Source: a bacterium (GTDB taxonomy: Bacteria > Bacteroidota > Bacteroidia > Flavobacteriales > Schleiferiaceae). Taken from it: a stretch of DNA of 64,000 nucleotides. Both the position numbers and the translations under genes were made by a program. The stretch lies in assembly GCA_016125155.1 (NCBI GenBank), contig WGMI01000008.1:1-64000 (forward strand), in the 5' to 3' direction. Under the pieces are notes generated by a model that saw only the letters and a list, made by a program, of their open reading frames with translations, was not told where the DNA came from and ran no database searches. Shown piece by piece: positions 189 to 9,560 of the stretch (positions are counted from its first letter, which is position 1; every line of letters starts with the position of its first letter).

Positions 189-1223
189 TCAATGCTGTAC
201 CAAAATCCGACGCGTTTCAGCGTTGTCGCCTTGGCTGATGGTGAGGGTATAGAGACCATTGCTGAGCGAAGCCACGTCCAAGGCAAGCGATTGAACACCC
301 GACACAGCGGTTTCCAGATGCTCGATCACCACACGCCCTTGAATGTCGACCAGCCGCACCTCGGTGCAGTCCAAGTTGTTTCCCAAGAGTTCGATGTGCA
401 ACAGATCGGAGGCAGGAATTGGATATACCTTCAATCCGGCAATGGGTTGAACTTCGGTCTTTGGAATGACTACCGGAGCAGAGCGCAGACAAAAACCACC
501 GATCTGCCACATATTGCCACCGCTTCCGGAGTTGATCAAACTCAGGGTGATGCGGTCTACATCGGTCCAATCAATGCCATGAAAAGCAGGGTTGGAAGTC
601 GAAAACAAAACATCGCCCATAGCAGAAATAGAGCCGGCGATGGTTCTGGTTCTGCGCTGAGTCGTATTCATGCCGCTGGTTACCGTAATCTTGACCAGAA
701 CCGAATTGCCCGATGCGAGCACGCCGTTGAAGTTCTTCAATACGAATGCGGCATTCGGAAAAGTGCTCACGTCGAGGTCGAGCGGCTGGCTGGCCTTGCC
801 ATAGTGAATCACCAAGGTGCCATTCCCAATGCTGGAATTTTCGCTGCTCAAAACGCCATTGCCCGAAAACATCCGAACATTGCCGTTGGGGCTGTTCCGG
901 GTAAACTTCATTTGGCGGTTGCCGCCATAGACTCCGCTTTGGTTGTTTTGGTTTTGGTTTTCGAACGTGCGTCCCACGAACAACACCGGCTGGCCGACCT
1001 GGTGGTTGAAAGGGGCAATGGGTTGGGCCAATTCACCGGCCTCCAGCCCTGCGGCGGTCACGATACCGGTAATGAAACCATTGGTATGCTGGACAAAAGT
1101 TTCGCTGCGAAAGGGGTTGGAGAAATTGTCGATGCACAGCTCGCTCGGTGTTTGTGCCAGCGTTGTTTGCGAGCACAAGGCACTGGCCATGGCCCAAAAG
1201 AACAAGAGAGTAGAGTGTTTCAT
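189..1223 (-). CDS. Secreted protein with T9SS type A sorting domain
   Basis: A 344-residue exported protein of unknown function. A signal peptide is visible (MKHSTLLFFWAMASALCSQ, cleavage near TLAQ). The middle, about residues 25-255, has a beta-rich composition with many Asn, Gly and Ser and no catalytic motif I can name. The last 80 residues have the layout of a type IX secretion C-terminal domain: a KVYPIPASDLLHIEL opening, a DIQGRVV turn and a final GLYTLTISQ strand followed by a short basic tail. Such domains direct proteins through the T9SS to the cell surface or medium. It starts at an ATG and has its own terminator downstream. The next gene upstream, also on the minus strand, is another T9SS cargo. 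Function: adhesin, enzyme or structural protein cannot be told apart. Confidence 0.85.
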   Translation of the reverse strand: MKHSTLLFFWAMASALCSQTTLAQTPSELCIDNFSNPFRSETFVQHTNGFITGIVTAAGLEAGELAQPIAPFNHQVGQPVLFVGRTFENQNQNNQSGVYGGNRQMKFTRNSPNGNVRMFSGNGVLSSENSSIGNGTLVIHYGKASQPLDLDVSTFPNAAFVLKNFNGVLASGNSVLVKITVTSGMNTTQRRTRTIAGSISAMGDVLFSTSNPAFHGIDWTDVDRITLSLINSGSGGNMWQIGGFCLRSAPVVIPKTEVQPIAGLKVYPIPASDLLHIELLGNNLDCTEVRLVDIQGRVVIEHLETAVSGVQSLALDVASLSNGLYTLTISQGDNAETRRILVQH

Positions 1224-1412: not shown

Positions 1413-4400
1413 TTAATCCCGCAGCACTTTTTCTTTCCACAATCGTCCCTCTTTTTCTACCTGGACGATGTAGACGCCCTTGGCGTAGGCGCCCAAGTCG
1501 ATGGGTGTTTCCAGCGCCGTGCACGCTCCGGTCTGAAGAATCCGTCCGCTCAGGTCGGTTACCGTGTAGGTACTGCCCAAGTCTGCGGACAAGTAGACGC
1601 GGTCTGCGGTGGGGTTCGGATAAAGGTATACCTGTTCTCCGGCCAGGAATTCTCCTGAAGCCCCGGCACTGGTTTCCTGATCTTTACACGGACCCGAACC
1701 GTTGTTGTGCCCCCGGCTCAACGGACAGCTTGGAGCACTGGTCGTAGCTGGTCCCGATCCAATCCGGTAGCGCACCCAAACCACAAATTCGTAGTTCCCA
1801 TTGCACAGCGATGCCAGATTGGCCACGTAGCTGGTTGTCGCTGCCCCGAGTAAGGGGCTTTGCACAAAAGGCAAACCGCTGTTTCGCACCCTCCAACCCA
1901 CGCGGTAGCCGATCAAATTGGTACCAGGCGGAAGGCTCACAGCATTCCAGTTGACCGTAAAATTGGCACCGCTCTTGACCACCGAGATCAGACTGGTAGC
2001 ATAGGCGGCACCCGCAGGATCAGTCACCGTAAACGTGTCGCTGGCGCTGCATCCGAGTACATCCGTCACCGTAACCCAATAGGTTCCGACGGGTACTACC
2101 ACAAATTTGGTCGTGGCTCCGGTGCTCCACAAAATGCTCTTGGCACCAATTCCTCCGGTAAATCCGGCGCGCAAGGTGGCTGGATCGCCGGCGCAGAACG
2201 GGGCGTCGGTCAATATGATGCTCAAAGTTATAGGCTTGGGGCAATCGGTAGTAAAGCTGACCTCCGAACCATACGCGGTACCCGAGGCGTTGGTGGCGTA
2301 CGCCCGGGCATAGTAGGTGGTCACCCCGGTAAGTCCCGTCAAGTTGGCCGTAAAGGCGCCTACACCAGATCCACTGCTCGCTATGCCTTTGGTGAGGTCG
2401 GGATTTGGGAGGGTGTCGTACACCACCCCTCGGCTCAGCACAGCGCTGCTTCCGGCACTGACCACCTCTCCCGAAATGGAAGCGGTGGTTTCTGAGACCG
2501 AAAGCACAGCAATGGTATTGACGGTCGGCGGAACCAATCCACCGCAGTTGTTCACTGTGACCAGAATGGGGTTGCTTTGGCCTTGGCAGCCGTTTGGATC
2601 CGTTGCCGTCAGATTGTATTGACCGCTTTGGAATACCCACAGACTGGAAGCGTTTTCTCCGCTCAAGGGCAGTCCATTCCGGCTCCATTGATAGATCAGA
2701 CCGGTTGCGGGCGCGCCCACCAAACGAACCGAATCTCCCGCACAGAACGTGGTAGGTCCCTGGGCTGTAACATTGACCACGACGGTAGAAGAATACCGGC
2801 TGATTACCAAGGCCGGTGATGAGGTCGTATCACAGCTGTTGGTAGCCCGCACCCTCAGGGTATCTACGGTACCCAACCAGCCATTGAAATCCACAGCAAT
2901 CTGATTGGTTCCATTGCCGCTGAGGATTTGCGCACCCGAGGGAAGCTGCCAGACATATCCGGTAGCGCCCGGCACGGGGCTGACAAAATAATTCTGGGTG
3001 ACCAAGGCACCGCACAGCGCAGCTGTTCCATTGATGGCACCCGGAATGCCCGGTGCCACGTCCACCTGAACCCAAACGCTGTCTGGGGCACTCAAACAAT
3101 TCAGGGGCCCCACCGACTGCACCCGATAATACCCTGTTTGCGCAACCGAGGCCATAGCAATCAATGGATCTTCGTCCGAACTGCTAAAGCCATTGGGACC
3201 GGTCCACAGTACCGGATCGGCGCTGCCGGGGGTGCACTGGAGTTGGAATCCTTGTCCCAGACATACCGCAATATTGGCTCCGGCCACTGGTGCTGGAGGA
3301 GGGGTACAGTTGTCGAAGTTGCCTGTTTTGATGAGGCTCCACTGTCCGAATTGGTCTTGGGCACGGAGGGCGAACTTATGGGCACCGCTGCTCAGTCCTG
3401 TGGTTGGCAGGTTGTAGCTCCCGTTCAGCAAGGCCGTGGGGGCGATGGCAATAGGCTGTCCTGCTCCAGGTCCTGGATCGGCATCGTAGAAATATTCCAA
3501 GGCAGCCAGCAATCCCGATGGTTGGGGAGAATAAGCGGGCTCGATCCAGACCCGATGGCTATTTGCGTGGCTCCAAACCCCATCGAAGTCGAGCACGCGA
3601 ATGCCGATTTCGTGGATGCCCGAGGCCCAACCGCTGGTAGAAAGCAAGGCAGACCCCGCTGCCATCATTCCTTGGCTGACGGGAATAGGGGTGCCATTGC
3701 CCACGCCGGGATCGCTGTCTACGAAGTATTCGGCGGCCAGAATTCCATCGGCCACGGTGTTGCTGCCCACGGTATAGGTGACTGTTTCAGGACAATTTCC
3801 ATCGGTTACGGTGACCGTGTACACGCCTGGAGCCAAGCCAGAGCGCACAGGTCCGGTGGGTCCGTCACTCCAGGAGTAGGTGTAGCCAAAGCCCTTGCCA
3901 CCTGTTGTCTGGAGCTGAATCATTCCGTTGTTTAAACCATTCGTCGAAGGCCAAATCTGCGAAGTTACCTGTAGCGTCGGATTGACAGATACATCGACCA
4001 ATCCCGTAACCCGAGGGTTGCCCAACACATCCGTATAGCTGGCCTGATAGGCACCGCTGTTCAAGACCACTATGGATTGGGTGGTTTCTCCCGTATTCCA
4101 CAAATGGTTGGTGCCCGCAGGAGCCGTGATGATTAAAGTGTCGCCTTCGCAAAACACGGTGGCCCCAGACAGTTGAACCACTCCCGAAGGATTAGGGTCC
4201 ACATTGACCATGCCCACCTTGCTCGAAACGCAGGTCCCTCCATTGTCGATTTCGAGGAGGACATCGTACGAGCCGCCTACCGCAAACGTGTGCTGCACTT
4301 GATTGCCCATGTACTCAAAACTGCCATCGGCATGGATGTCCCATCGAACCACAGCCCCGGGTGCTACATTGCTGCTAAAACTGGCCAAGGTGGTCGGCAA

Positions 4401-7400
4401 CCCGGCCATGGCCCCGCCCAATGTGCCAAAGTTGACGGTCGGCATCAAACACCCCGTGGGCACTACGGTAAAGGGTACCGTTCGGATGGCGCTCCAGCGG
4501 CCTGCCAGATCCTGGAACCTCAGGCTGAGTTTGTACGCGCCGGGCGAAAAACTGGATACGTCAAAGGTTCGAATCAGGTTTAGAGCATTCCCTACCGGGA
4601 CGTTGAGCACTTGGGCCTGTCCAACCCCTGGATCGGCTCCATAGAAATATTCTGCCCGAACAATGGGGAATAAGGTGTTGGGTTCGGGAAGGGCAAAATC
4701 GACGTGAACCGTCCTGCCCTGGACAACAGAAGCGTTGCCATCCGTATCGATGGTTCGTATCAACAGCCGATGTTGGCCTGTCGACAGACCGGCGAACGAA
4801 ATCGAGGGGTTTGCATTGATCTGATGACTGGGATAGCTGCCCGGAATGGGGGTTCCCATTCCCAAGCCCGGATCTTCGTCAAAGAAGTACTCCATGGCCG
4901 CAATCGGCGCCCGCGAAGTATCAACGACCGCGCCTGCAGGGTCTCCTACCAAAATCAAGTGCGGTTTGGCATGTCCCCATTGTCCCAGATGGTCGCGGCT
5001 TCTGAGGTTGAGTTTGTGATAACCCGGAACCAGTCCCGTTGTGGGGATGGAGAGCACGGATTGCACCAGCGATCCTTGGGGCAGGAACAAGGCGGATCCC
5101 AATCCAACCCCTGGATCGGTGTCGAAAAAGTACTCGGTTTCCACAATGCCAGGTGCCACTGGAACCACCTGGTTTGGGACCACGACCGATACCACCTTGG
5201 GACATTGGCCATCACTGACCGTTACGGTGTAGTTTCCCGGTGCCAATCCCCCGACCGAAGCCGTAGTAGCCCCCGTGTTCCAGTTGTAGGTGTACAAGAA
5301 TGACCCTCCGCCTGTGGCCGTAATGACTGCGCCTCCATTGTTCTGTCCATTGCTGGCGGGGAAAATCTCCACATCAATGTCCAGTCCGGGGTAGACCGTG
5401 ATGTTCACCAGAGCGCTGGAAGAGGGGTTTCCTTGGGTATTGGTATAAACCACGCTGTAGGCTCCGCTTTCCTTGACCCAAATACGCCGAGTGGACTGCC
5501 CGGTGTTCCAAAGCCAATTGCTGCCCTGAGGCGCCCTCAGCTCTGTGCTGTCGCCTTCGCAAAACACCGTGGGTCCGAGGGGTGCGACGGCCGTGGAAAG
5601 TGCCGGACCCGCCGTGACCAATTTGATCACCGATGTGGCACACCCGTCCAGAGGATCGACCGTGAGCATCACCGGGTAGGTACCCGGGCTCGCAAAGATG
5701 TGTTGGGCTGTATTTCCCGTGTATTCCACGCTGCCATCCGCACCGATGTCCCACTGAAAGGTCGCGCCCGGAGCTACTCCTGTAGACGTGCTCGTCAGTG
5801 TGGTGGGGCTTCCGGCATTGACAGTGGGCGCACTGAAATTGACCGCAGGCGGGGTACAGGCCTGTGTGGTTACCGCGATCAGTTCACTCCGCACGGTCGA
5901 CCAATTGAGCCAGGAATCGCGGACCCGAATCACGAGGCGGTGGTTGCCCGGGGTCAAACCGGTCACTGGTATCGTCCGAGGGAGACTGAGCACATTGCCC
6001 TGAGTCAGCGGAATAGAGGTTCCCATGCCCACACCCGGATCGGTGTCAAAGAAATACTCCGCCTGTATGATGGGAAAGTCGAATGAAAGCAAATTGGGGG
6101 GCGGGAGGATGTCCACAAAAACGTTGGCGGTTTGGGAGATGCTCCATTTCCCATTGCTGTCGCGGGTCCTTAAATTAAAGATGTGAAAACCCGTGCTCAA
6201 ACCTGCCGTTGATGCCGAAAAGGCTTGAGAAAGATTCGAATTCGGCACGATTCCCGGCACGGGCGTTCCCAGACCGACCCCCGGGTCGGCATCGAAAAAG
6301 TATTCGGCTTCGACTACATCGCGCAAAGGTTCTGGAGCCGGGGGGGCAGCGGTGTCGGCCATGTAAAAAAGGTGAAATTGAGCAACACCCCAAATGGAGG
6401 GATCCTCGCGAAAGCGAATTCCCAACTTGTGAAAACCTGGACTGAGTCCAGCCGTGGGGTCTACGATGGCACTTCCGTTCAATGTCGTTCCGGGTCCAAA
6501 GGAGAAGGGTGTGCCCATTCCGGGTCCCGGATCGGCATCGACAAAATACTCGGCCTCAATAAGTCCTTCGACCGGATTGAGTATTTGGTTGGGCACCAAA
6601 AAAGTCCGCATCACCGGGCAAAAAGTGTTTCCGACGGTGACGCTGTACATCCCCGGCGCCAATCCACTGCGCCCCGGCAAGGTGCTGCCATCGCTCCACA
6701 AATAGGTGTAGCCCGATCCGCTGCCTCCGCTCACGCTCAGTTGAATGGAACCATTGGCCAATCCATTGACCGCAGGAGAGATGACCGCCGCAATGTTCAA
6801 CGAAGGCTCAACGGTGATTTCAATAGACGGGGTAATTCGCGGAAAACCGTTGATATCCAAATAGGAACAAGAGAATACTCCAGATTCGCTCACCACAATG
6901 CTCGCCGTGTTGGCACCATTGCTCCATACGGGGTTGCTGCCGGCAGGGGCGGTTAAGACCACGCTATCGCCCGAGCAAAAAGTGGCAGGTCCACTGAGGC
7001 TGATTTGGTTGGTCGGGCTGGGGCCCACCACAACGCGTTTGACCACGGTGCTGCTGATGGCCTCGTCGTACAACAATCCAATCTCGGATGTGTCCAGCAC
7101 ACTTCCAAATAAATAGACATCGTCGAAGACCCCATTCGATTTGGTCGTGGCGTTGGAGCCTACCCATAGTTGCGCAAAACTGCCCAAATTGTTTCCCGTA
7201 GCATTGGTTTGTTGTATCAAGACCCCGTCGAGGTAGGACTTGAACCCATTGACGGCCCCGCTTTGCCAAGTGAGCACGACATGATGCCATTGCCCGTTTT
7301 GAAGGGTATTACCAGACTGGTTGTCGGAGGCCACATTTCGCGTTCCAACATAGTGAAGTTCATTGGTTTCGGTCGAGCGAACATCGGCGTTGTTGGTCTC

Positions 7401-8450
7401 GATGTTGACGCCATAATTGGACGAACTGCCCTTGAACCAGTACGACAGACTGAAATCGCCCAAGGCAATGGAATCGCCCGGCGTACCGACCCGGTGCACA
7501 CCGGCGGGAAGCCCTTCGGTTGAGTACGCTCCTTTTGGATCGCCGTGTCTGCCCAAAACCTCTTGAATAGAACCGGTTTTGACCATATCGCCCAGGGTGC
7601 CTGCCTGTTTGACGAGTTCCCCATTGTAGAAGCGGTACAGCCCCAAGAGCCCGCTGGCGTTGGCCGGTGTACCCGGATTGGAGACCCGTAGAAGGACGTC
7701 GTATTCTCCCGGACTGGGAAAGGTGTAGGTGAGGTCCTTGCCCGCAAACTCGATGCTGCCGTCGGCTCCTATGTCCCAAGCCCATCGCCGGCCCGTTTTG
7801 AAATTGGTCGAGGTATTGACAAAGGTGGCGGGAACCCCCGCATTGATCCCGGACGGCACTGTAAAGTTGGCCACGGGCAGCTCGGTTTGACCGGCCGGGT
7901 CGGAGACCCGAATTTGGGTCCAAAAAGTCTGAGACCATTGGCCGCTCAGGTCTTCCACCCGAACCCCGATTCGGTGCACGCCTGTGCTCAGCCCCGTGGT
8001 GGGGATGGTCCGCAAAACGTTCAGCCCAGTTCCCGATGTAAATGCAATGGGGGTACCGTTGCCGGCACCGGGATCGCTGTTAAAGAAATACTCCGCTCTT
8101 TGAAGCGCTAAAGGTGGAGGAACCGGCTGGGTAGTGTATTGCAGCGGGCTGATGTAAAACAGCCGGTCGTACGCAACGCTCCAGCCATACTGGTCGTCTT
8201 TGACCCGAACCGCCAAGAAATGATAGCCCGGTACGAGACCTGTAAGCGGAAGGTTGAAATTGGCGTTGATCGACAATCCCGGACTGATCGGAAGCGCGTT
8301 GGCAAACCCAATACCCGGATCTACATCGATAAAGTATTCTGCCTCAACCAGCGTGGCCTGAATCCGTGGCATTGAAGCGAGCCAGAGCAACGCGAGCAAT
8401 GTCCAACGGGTCCCTGCGCGCCTGAGAAGGCTGGGGATCGCATGTTCCAT
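1413..8450 (-). CDS. Giant T9SS-exported repeat protein (PKD, LamG, Ig-like, EYF-DPG modules)
   Basis: A 2345-residue surface or secreted protein. After a hydrophobic N-terminal signal (about residues 14-33) there are ten modules opening with E-Y-F-x-x-x-D-P-G, at about residues 37, 119, 632, 714, 797, 1104, 1186, 1266, 1572 and 1651. Each is about 80 residues and closes with a GLSPGFHKLGIR-type strand and a Gly-x-Trp-Ser turn. Groups of two or three modules are followed by a PKD-like domain (WDIGADGS), an Ig-like domain (FCxGDS..L.AP.G) and a SprB-like repeat (YTYxWSDG...GLAPGxYTVTV). The first group also carries a LamG/concanavalin-like domain (about 270-470; FSLSYWFKG, WHHVVLTW). Residues about 1735-2250 hold Ig-like and Fn3-like domains. 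The end (LYPNPTADRVYLS... to ...KEKVLRD) is a T9SS sorting domain. No enzyme domain is visible; adhesion or matrix function is inferred. Confidence 0.9.
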   Translation of the reverse strand: MEHAIPSLLRRAGTRWTLLALLWLASMPRIQATLVEAEYFIDVDPGIGFANALPISPGLSINANFNLPLTGLVPGYHFLAVRVKDDQYGWSVAYDRLFYISPLQYTTQPVPPPLALQRAEYFFNSDPGAGNGTPIAFTSGTGLNVLRTIPTTGLSTGVHRIGVRVEDLSGQWSQTFWTQIRVSDPAGQTELPVANFTVPSGINAGVPATFVNTSTNFKTGRRWAWDIGADGSIEFAGKDLTYTFPSPGEYDVLLRVSNPGTPANASGLLGLYRFYNGELVKQAGTLGDMVKTGSIQEVLGRHGDPKGAYSTEGLPAGVHRVGTPGDSIALGDFSLSYWFKGSSSNYGVNIETNNADVRSTETNELHYVGTRNVASDNQSGNTLQNGQWHHVVLTWQSGAVNGFKSYLDGVLIQQTNATGNNLGSFAQLWVGSNATTKSNGVFDDVYLFGSVLDTSEIGLLYDEAISSTVVKRVVVGPSPTNQISLSGPATFCSGDSVVLTAPAGSNPVWSNGANTASIVVSESGVFSCSYLDINGFPRITPSIEITVEPSLNIAAVISPAVNGLANGSIQLSVSGGSGSGYTYLWSDGSTLPGRSGLAPGMYSVTVGNTFCPVMRTFLVPNQILNPVEGLIEAEYFVDADPGPGMGTPFSFGPGTTLNGSAIVDPTAGLSPGFHKLGIRFREDPSIWGVAQFHLFYMADTAAPPAPEPLRDVVEAEYFFDADPGVGLGTPVPGIVPNSNLSQAFSASTAGLSTGFHIFNLRTRDSNGKWSISQTANVFVDILPPPNLLSFDFPIIQAEYFFDTDPGVGMGTSIPLTQGNVLSLPRTIPVTGLTPGNHRLVIRVRDSWLNWSTVRSELIAVTTQACTPPAVNFSAPTVNAGSPTTLTSTSTGVAPGATFQWDIGADGSVEYTGNTAQHIFASPGTYPVMLTVDPLDGCATSVIKLVTAGPALSTAVAPLGPTVFCEGDSTELRAPQGSNWLWNTGQSTRRIWVKESGAYSVVYTNTQGNPSSSALVNITVYPGLDIDVEIFPASNGQNNGGAVITATGGGSFLYTYNWNTGATTASVGGLAPGNYTVTVSDGQCPKVVSVVVPNQVVPVAPGIVETEYFFDTDPGVGLGSALFLPQGSLVQSVLSIPTTGLVPGYHKLNLRSRDHLGQWGHAKPHLILVGDPAGAVVDTSRAPIAAMEYFFDEDPGLGMGTPIPGSYPSHQINANPSISFAGLSTGQHRLLIRTIDTDGNASVVQGRTVHVDFALPEPNTLFPIVRAEYFYGADPGVGQAQVLNVPVGNALNLIRTFDVSSFSPGAYKLSLRFQDLAGRWSAIRTVPFTVVPTGCLMPTVNFGTLGGAMAGLPTTLASFSSNVAPGAVVRWDIHADGSFEYMGNQVQHTFAVGGSYDVLLEIDNGGTCVSSKVGMVNVDPNPSGVVQLSGATVFCEGDTLIITAPAGTNHLWNTGETTQSIVVLNSGAYQASYTDVLGNPRVTGLVDVSVNPTLQVTSQIWPSTNGLNNGMIQLQTTGGKGFGYTYSWSDGPTGPVRSGLAPGVYTVTVTDGNCPETVTYTVGSNTVADGILAAEYFVDSDPGVGNGTPIPVSQGMMAAGSALLSTSGWASGIHEIGIRVLDFDGVWSHANSHRVWIEPAYSPQPSGLLAALEYFYDADPGPGAGQPIAIAPTALLNGSYNLPTTGLSSGAHKFALRAQDQFGQWSLIKTGNFDNCTPPPAPVAGANIAVCLGQGFQLQCTPGSADPVLWTGPNGFSSSDEDPLIAMASVAQTGYYRVQSVGPLNCLSAPDSVWVQVDVAPGIPGAINGTAALCGALVTQNYFVSPVPGATGYVWQLPSGAQILSGNGTNQIAVDFNGWLGTVDTLRVRATNSCDTTSSPALVISRYSSTVVVNVTAQGPTTFCAGDSVRLVGAPATGLIYQWSRNGLPLSGENASSLWVFQSGQYNLTATDPNGCQGQSNPILVTVNNCGGLVPPTVNTIAVLSVSETTASISGEVVSAGSSAVLSRGVVYDTLPNPDLTKGIASSGSGVGAFTANLTGLTGVTTYYARAYATNASGTAYGSEVSFTTDCPKPITLSIILTDAPFCAGDPATLRAGFTGGIGAKSILWSTGATTKFVVVPVGTYWVTVTDVLGCSASDTFTVTDPAGAAYATSLISVVKSGANFTVNWNAVSLPPGTNLIGYRVGWRVRNSGLPFVQSPLLGAATTSYVANLASLCNGNYEFVVWVRYRIGSGPATTSAPSCPLSRGHNNGSGPCKDQETSAGASGEFLAGEQVYLYPNPTADRVYLSADLGSTYTVTDLSGRILQTGACTALETPIDLGAYAKGVYIVQVEKEGRLWKEKVLRD
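3480..8346 (-). repeat. Protein-coding super-repeat: EYF-DPG modules in blocks of about 1.4 kb
   Basis: Within the giant gene the order [EYF-DPG x2-3] - PKD - Ig-like - SprB-like recurs in three blocks, with a fourth that has two EYF-DPG modules and then diverges. The spacing between the first modules of successive blocks is close to constant after the first (about residue 632 to 1104 to 1572, steps of about 472 and 468). The first block is longer because a LamG domain lies between its PKD and Ig-like parts. The DNA copies have diverged, so this is an old internal duplication and not a recent tandem array. Confidence 0.8.
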
Positions 8451-8495: not shown

Positions 8496-9560
8496 TCAGT
8501 TGCGCGTCTTGGCCTGGATGTTGATCTGGAGTGTTCCTCCAGCAGGAACAGAGCTCACAGGGATGTTGATCTGGGTAACCGCTGGAATTTTGGGCCATTG
8601 GGGCACATTGGCCACCGGAGCATTGCCCCCGGTCAGACCGATGTTCGTCGCGTTGGTACCCGTTCCCAGAGCCGGCGAGCCCGGTTGGGGGGTAAAGTTG
8701 TGCGCCCAATCCATATTGACACCGCCCAAGGCCGGATAGATCTGGAACTGGGGATTTTGATTGATCAAATTGCCCGATCCAATGGCCCCAGCGGGTGGCA
8801 AAGTGTTGTTATTGCAGATGTAGCTGATGTTGTTGTTGAAGGTACAGTTGGTGCAACCCGTGAATTCGTTTTTATAGAAAATGTTGTTTTCGACAATCAA
8901 CTCCTGTGGCCCTTGGAACGACGAGCCAATGTTGTTGATGAATACATTGTTTCGAACAACAACACCCCCATTGATGTCATACGAGCCATCAAAAATGGCA
9001 CTGTTGTGAAAGACGTTGTTGGTGAATAAAGTGGAAGTAATCTGGGGATCGCTCAAATACACCGATCGGATCAGGCAATTTCTCAACGTGACATTGCTGT
9101 ATCCCCCATTGGGAGCAAATTCGAAATTGATGTATTGGGAAATATTACAACGTTCGATCACAATATCATCCAGAGAGCCTTGGTTTCCGGTTTGGCCCGT
9201 GAACGAACCTTTAAGATTGACAAAGGAACTGTGAATTCCATACATACGGCTTCCGTCAGAACCCACGGAACTGTTGAGGCGTTGGAATAGGATCTGAAAG
9301 ATGAAGGTTTCCACGGCCCCTTCTGTAGGAACCGCATTCAACCCTTCGCCGAACAAAACCACCTTTTTGGGAATGGTTACCGATTCCTGGTAGTTGATTC
9401 CACCGGCAATCAGGAGGGTGTCCCCGGGATTGGCCGCATTGACAGCCGCTTGAACGGTGGTGTACTGAGCCGGACGGTCGGGGTTGTTGCTTACGGTGAG
9501 CACAGTGGCTTGGGCGGTGGCGAATCCGGCAACAAGGGCGAGGGCGAAGAACTGCTTCAT
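8496..9560 (-). CDS. Exported right-handed beta-helix protein
   Basis: A 354-residue exported protein. The signal peptide is clear (MKQFFALALVAGFATAQA). What follows is typical of parallel beta-helix proteins: an opening (YTTVQAAVNAANPGDTLLIAGG) like pectate-lyase-fold and chondroitinase-type repeats, then short strands rich in Asn such as VVRNNVFINNI, IVENNIFYKNEF and CTFNNNISYICNNN that form the turns. No catalytic triad of a polysaccharide lyase can be assigned. Unlike its neighbours it has no T9SS sorting domain: the end is a short beta segment. It lies 45 bases upstream of the giant repeat protein on the same strand with no terminator between, so the two may be cotranscribed. Role unknown; a surface carbohydrate-binding or structural part is possible. 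Confidence 0.85.
   Translation of the reverse strand: MKQFFALALVAGFATAQATVLTVSNNPDRPAQYTTVQAAVNAANPGDTLLIAGGINYQESVTIPKKVVLFGEGLNAVPTEGAVETFIFQILFQRLNSSVGSDGSRMYGIHSSFVNLKGSFTGQTGNQGSLDDIVIERCNISQYINFEFAPNGGYSNVTLRNCLIRSVYLSDPQITSTLFTNNVFHNSAIFDGSYDINGGVVVRNNVFINNIGSSFQGPQELIVENNIFYKNEFTGCTNCTFNNNISYICNNNTLPPAGAIGSGNLINQNPQFQIYPALGGVNMDWAHNFTPQPGSPALGTGTNATNIGLTGGNAPVANVPQWPKIPAVTQINIPVSSVPAGGTLQINIQAKTRN

Follow-up and report, generated by a model that had tools for sequence, protein, structure and literature searches.

Incomplete Ig-like folds that are completed in trans are known from chaperone–usher pili and from the FimA/Mfa1 pili of Bacteroidales. Secreted scaffolds with repeated receptor modules are known from cohesin–dockerin systems, and SprB-like giant cargo proteins of the T9SS (type A or B) combine a signal peptide, repeats, PKD/SprB-type spacers, and a sorting domain. 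Through the T9SS, periplasmic proteins cross the outer membrane in a folded state (PMC9251779), and the system depends on a C-terminal domain of the cargo protein (PMC11285876). Here, we analyzed a window, by which we mean the whole stretch of 64,000 nucleotides at the start of contig WGMI01000008.1 from a member of the Schleiferiaceae, where a giant protein with repeated EYF-DPG modules is encoded directly downstream of a secreted beta-helix protein (Table 1). Our reading is that the products of these two genes probably share a single Ig-like domain.

EYF-DPG modules in the window and across Bacteroidota

The original prediction, that the giant protein is a T9SS cargo with ten EYF-DPG modules of about 80 residues, was borne out. 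The motif EYFxxxDPG occurs exactly 10 times in the 2,345-residue ORF, starting at residues 38, 120, 634, 716, 798, 1106, 1187, 1267, 1574, and 1652, and the modules are clustered 2+3+3+2 with neighbors 78 to 82 residues apart. The C terminus matches both TIGR04183 (36.6 bits, with a curated cutoff of 23) and Por_Secre_tail (E = 2e-9), while the N terminus, as read from the sequence, is hydrophobic and signal-like. When aligned over 74 to 76 columns, the 10 modules show a mean column identity of 51 to 52%, with E5, Y6, F7, D11, P12, G13, G15, G42, and R49 invariant in all of them. Two further features that had been proposed as shared held only in a looser form: the G-x-W-S turn is found in its strict form in five of the 10 modules, although W57 is kept in nine, and the GFHKLGIR strand is exact in module 3 only, although its general form, G-x-H-x-L-x-hydrophobic-R, stands.

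The spacers between the module groups hold PKD, Ig-like, and SprB segments; PKD_4 (PF18911) matches three stretches of the protein, and PKD_4 stretches are located in the later spacers. Many repeats of Aureispira GhpA (PDB 9flp) resemble the PKD-like stretch at residues 1709 to 1926 (residues 1717 to 1926 of it correspond to window 2673 to 3302, minus strand). We considered GhpA as a relative of the module and rejected it, because the PDB match (1e-72, phmmer) is confined to these PKD-like repeats and the EYF modules lie outside it. Directly downstream of the giant gene, window positions 189 to 1223 (minus strand) encode another T9SS type A cargo of 344 residues, whose matches in other loci fall mostly within its sorting domain region.

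Table 1. Features of the two-gene locus, in window coordinates
Feature	Position	Strand	Basis
Secreted protein of 354 aa with signal peptide; right-handed parallel beta-helix, no T9SS C-terminal domain	8496..9560	-	ORF, AF2, Foldseek
C-terminal tail (putative plug), WPKIPAVTQINIPVSSVPAGGTLQINIQAKTRN followed by the stop	8499..8597	-	Conserved among partners; AF2 strands A, A', and B at high pLDDT
Giant EYF-DPG protein, 2345 aa	1413..8450	-	In frame with beta-helix gene, start 45 nt past its stop
EYF-DPG module 1, adjoins signal peptide	8130..8351	-	Profile alignment and AF2 models
EYF-DPG module 2	7884..8105	-	Profile alignment; without strand E in AF2 model
PKD domain, after module 2	7656..7856	-	Pfam PF00801, aa 199-265
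Laminin_G_3, within first spacer	7080..7484	-	Pfam PF13385, aa 323-457, E=1.7e-12
SprB repeat, best-scoring of three	6681..6767	-	Pfam PF13573, aa 562-590
EYF-DPG module 3	6342..6563	-	Profile alignment
EYF-DPG module 4	6096..6317	-	Profile alignment
EYF-DPG module 5	5850..6071	-	Profile alignment
EYF-DPG module 6	4926..5147	-	Profile alignment
EYF-DPG module 7	4683..4904	-	Profile alignment
EYF-DPG module 8	4443..4664	-	Profile alignment
EYF-DPG module 9	3522..3743	-	Profile alignment
EYF-DPG module 10	3288..3509	-	Profile alignment
PKD-like (PKD_6) region, after last module	2814..3050	-	Pfam PF19408, aa 1801-1879; inside GhpA-like part
T9SS type A C-terminal sorting domain	1425..1625	-	TIGR04183, aa 2276-2342, E=3e-9

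The suggestion that the modules form an undescribed family also stood. A profile was built from 561 copies in 114 loci, which include the window and come from among the matches listed. It spans about 70 residues and reads I..AEYFFDTDPG.GNGT.I.I......I...F.I....L..G.H.L.IRVKD..G.WS....R.FYV. Scanning the genome collection revealed at least 567 confirmed module stretches, and in a sample of 297 genomes from the phylum of the window, about 27 have full-length modules. A search of Pfam and NCBIfam found no model dedicated to the module, profile searches of the PDB with modules or with tail plus module gave nothing significant, and the motif strings returned no paper in the openly available literature. 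Only Y_Y_Y (PF07495) gave a weak match to the C-terminal half of two of the 10 modules (best E = 0.0099), and its whole-protein sum was 44.8 vs. 26.6 bits, no single module reaching the gathering score. With 561 copies matched, the pattern does not stem from chance; the EYF-DPG module is a coherent, widespread, and unnamed domain family.

Module proteins mostly contain three to five modules, the first of which usually follows directly after the signal peptide, and tandem modules are joined by linkers of about 10 residues with no visible A–B strands. A giant subfamily with a 2+3+3+2/3 plan comprises the window protein and those of L042, L045, L049, L052, L061, L065, L074, L089, L105, L106, and L109; the module starts flanking a spacer are 305 to 310 residues apart, and the first spacer is about 200 residues longer in the window, L041, and L045. 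Some giant orthologs (L074, L106, and L089) end in acidic stretches without an obvious T9SS tail, and the C termini of L074 and L106 carry dockerin-like repeats such as GDVNGDGVVDGSDMALIEN. In the 561-copy alignment, hydrophobic residues have been lost from columns 43 and 66 in the last module of arrays, where column 70 has often become a Cys, changes that probably mark the contact to a next module.

Pairing with an upstream beta-helix gene

The product of the upstream gene was modeled by AF2 as a helix of short strands, and Foldseek matched it to pectate lyase and pectin methylesterase. A Pfam search of this protein gave no match, and the NosD/CASH model TIGR04247 scored 18.5 bits on it where 300 are required. 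Among 115 ORFs with at least two modules, 88 have a homolog of this beta-helix protein directly upstream on the same strand, typically tens of bases away. The remaining module ORFs are nearly all too close to the end of their locus, L077, L090, and L095 being exceptions with ample room. Conversely, when coordinates are compared across the 297 genomes, 35 of the 36 strong matches to the beta-helix profile lie beside an EYF gene. As for EYF genes without a strong match, those of G006, G057, G266, G016:C9, and G001:C17 have a divergent beta-helix gene directly upstream, and those of G039 and G131 sit at contig ends. The upstream gene, which the original prediction had not linked to the modules, most likely belongs to the functional unit.

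The beta-helix partners share a C-terminal tail with the consensus P.IP.V..LNI.N..VP.GGTLNV.IKA..NN, then the stop codon, which in 38 of 47 partner tails falls four residues past the conserved Ala. In terms of a bacterial Ig domain, this tail would supply strands A and B, ending where strand C is due; strand C is also where the EYF module starts. The divergent tails of L188 to L193 look alike by eye, at nonsignificant E values of 0.04 to 6 with the tail HMM. The only strong beta-helix match without an EYF partner is L170, in genome G137, where no full-length EYF module was found. The body of this protein is matched with E = 5e-62 (model positions 6 to 318 of 349), and the last 31 model positions, i.e., the tail, are unmatched; by eye, it has its own LamG and a sorting-domain-like C terminus. 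This exception fits the pairing, the tail being gone where the EYF partner is gone.

Several variants of the gene pair were seen. Two tandem beta-helix genes precede one EYF gene in L195, L196, G049, G186, and G123; one beta-helix copy in G146 has an in-frame TAA inside its tail; and the same gene pair is present in L097 and L112, on contigs labeled Verrucomicrobia, which reflects either transfer or a binning error. A natural unsplit fusion of beta-helix and module was sought in the 297 genomes, and none was found.

A putative Ig-like domain divided between two proteins

In an order test, 36 tail residues and module 1 were joined and searched against Pfam Big_7 (PF17957). In this order, Big_7 was matched in 8 of 22 loci, with a best E value of 4.1e-5. 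In contrast, the reversed order, module followed by tail, gave Big_7 in none of 23, and five modules on their own gave none either. The two matches shown in detail cross the junction (residues 13 to 82 and 15 to 81, corresponding to profile positions 3 to 68 and 5 to 66 of 70). The better of these two scores 21.8 bits, below the Pfam cutoff of 24.1, and no single natural chain among the window modules and the five modules reaches the Big_7 gathering score.

Since the two genes of the window are in one frame and separated by a single TGA, their natural read-through could be folded. A first AF2 job covered the beta-helix, the linker with the signal peptide, and modules 1 and 2, using an alignment of 118 rows, 21 of which, query included, contain both proteins (pLDDT 87.4, pTM 0.77). 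Confident strands were modeled in the tail (residues 327 to 332, 337 to 339, and 343 to 351) and in module 1 (404 to 411, 421 to 423, 430 to 438, 445 to 455, and 464 to 471). Module 2, to which no tail was available and which is the only internal control for a tail-free module, was modeled at high pLDDT without a strand matching 430 to 438 (strand E). A second job, from the last 58 beta-helix residues through module 1, gave eight strands, nearly all with a block pLDDT above 90 (pTM 0.73). Both chains are covalent read-throughs of the stop codon, so association is favored by tethering, and strand pairing was deduced from DSSP and TM-scores rather than from PAE or coordinates.

When the second model was submitted to Foldseek, single Ig/FnIII-type domains were aligned over about 150 to 170 columns, from the tail to the end of the module. 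These include the FnIII domain of CbhA (3pe9_D, TMt 0.57, rmsd 4.7), alpha-2-macroglobulin (2p9r_B, TMt 0.52), and NPC2 (1nep, 0.50), with a high rmsd in some cases (10.6 Å for 3pe9_A). The best TMq, 0.41 of 185 residues, corresponds to 76 residue-equivalents and therefore extends beyond the 73-residue module alone. Thus, what had been taken for a stand-alone domain of unassigned fold was modeled instead as strands C to G of an Ig/FnIII-like sandwich; the upstream tail and module 1 together gave a confident Ig domain with strand E formed, and module 2 has no strand E. The module is most likely such a sandwich without strands A and B, and a distant relative of Y_Y_Y and Big_7. On these models and the order test, we consider it probable that one Ig-like domain is shared between the two adjacent genes' products, which would bind each other in trans.

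How many modules would accept a tail is a separate question. The hairpin might plug module 1 only, giving a 1:1 heterodimer in which modules 2 to 10 are complemented otherwise or act as spacers. Module 1 is indeed the nearest and the one completed in the model, and first modules are slightly better conserved than middle ones (58% vs. 36% for T36 and 57% vs. 26% for S40). We nevertheless regard this version of the split domain as unlikely, because the hydrophobic pattern of the core and strand E (columns 20, 22, 28, 34, 46, 48, and 65) is common to first, middle, and last modules, so that all could accept the tail, and because some operons place a pair of beta-helix genes with tails ahead of a single EYF gene, which fits more than one socket.

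It is more doubtful still that the modules are complete five-stranded mini-domains, serving as spacers or ligand binders, with a merely coexpressed beta-helix whose tail caps the helix. This would account for the high pLDDT of module 2 in the absence of a tail and for the short linkers between tandem modules, where A–B strands are not visible. However, it leaves strand E partnerless in module 2 of the model, and it does not predict that a known complete Ig family is matched by tail plus module and not by the reverse, that the tail ends where strand C would begin, or that it is missing from L170.

Finally, we consider it least likely that D-x-D-P-G binds calcium and that the modules are calcium-stiffened adhesin repeats. 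The acidic D9 and D11 are conserved, but in both models the motif is flanked by strands C and C', a position comparable to that of the DPG turn in the V domains of antigen receptors, which favors the turn role that the original prediction had offered as the other option. In a PDB search with the tail-plus-module profile, EYF..DPG.G aligned to a turn, DPGKGL, in the V domains of T-cell receptors at a nonsignificant E of 0.4; the two are possibly convergent C–C' hairpins.

Proposed export and comparison with known systems

Returning to the split Ig-like domain, the upstream gene would give a beta-helix protein that is secreted and ends in strands A and B, formed by its last 33 or so residues, and the downstream gene a protein with up to 11 modules that each comprise strands C, C', E, F, and G. 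In the periplasm, the A–B hairpin would act as a plug and an EYF module as its socket, the hairpin pairing with strand E there, and the sandwich thus completed would hold the beta-helix protein noncovalently on the EYF scaffold. T9SS sorting domains were found in most of 67 EYF C termini, type A in 60 and type B in 14 (the counts overlap), and in none of the 36 beta-helix proteins searched with the type A and B models. Since the beta-helix protein brings a signal peptide while the sorting domain is found on its partner, the two would probably leave the cell as one folded complex and be presented at the surface. Export of the beta-helix bound to the EYF protein would also agree with a system that moves folded cargo and needs its C-terminal domain. 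The beta-helix itself probably binds glycans or a surface. If modules 2 to 10 also serve as sockets, as we infer, these proteins might be multivalent half-Ig scaffolds that take up beta-helix tails in several sockets in the periplasm and export them as hitchhikers on a single sorting domain, which would amount to a general means of surface display in Bacteroidota, a tentative extension to which we give somewhat less than even chances. We found no description of hitchhiker export by T9SS in the openly available literature.

If our reading is true, a widespread unnamed repeat becomes a defined protein–protein connector, which accounts for two genes traveling together across Bacteroidota. The T9SS would gain a possible route for partners without a sorting domain, and a natural split-Ig plug and socket would be usable in protein engineering.

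Big_7 and Y_Y_Y share the Ig-like strand pattern of the module, but they are contained in one chain, whereas strands A–B and C–G would here belong to two gene products. As in chaperone–usher and FimA/Mfa1 pili, an incomplete fold would be completed in trans; unlike in these donor-strand pili, this would be done by a C-terminal A–B hairpin rather than one extended strand, the beta-helix partner shows no sign of polymerizing, and the sockets are in tandem on one scaffold. Like cohesin–dockerin scaffoldins, the EYF proteins could show several partners, but a search for dockerin repeats in the 36 beta-helix proteins found none, and recognition would consist of fold completion. Finally, the giant protein has the overall plan of SprB-like T9SS cargo, from which it differs in having a constant partner that lacks a sorting domain, and this suggests a complex exported on one signal.
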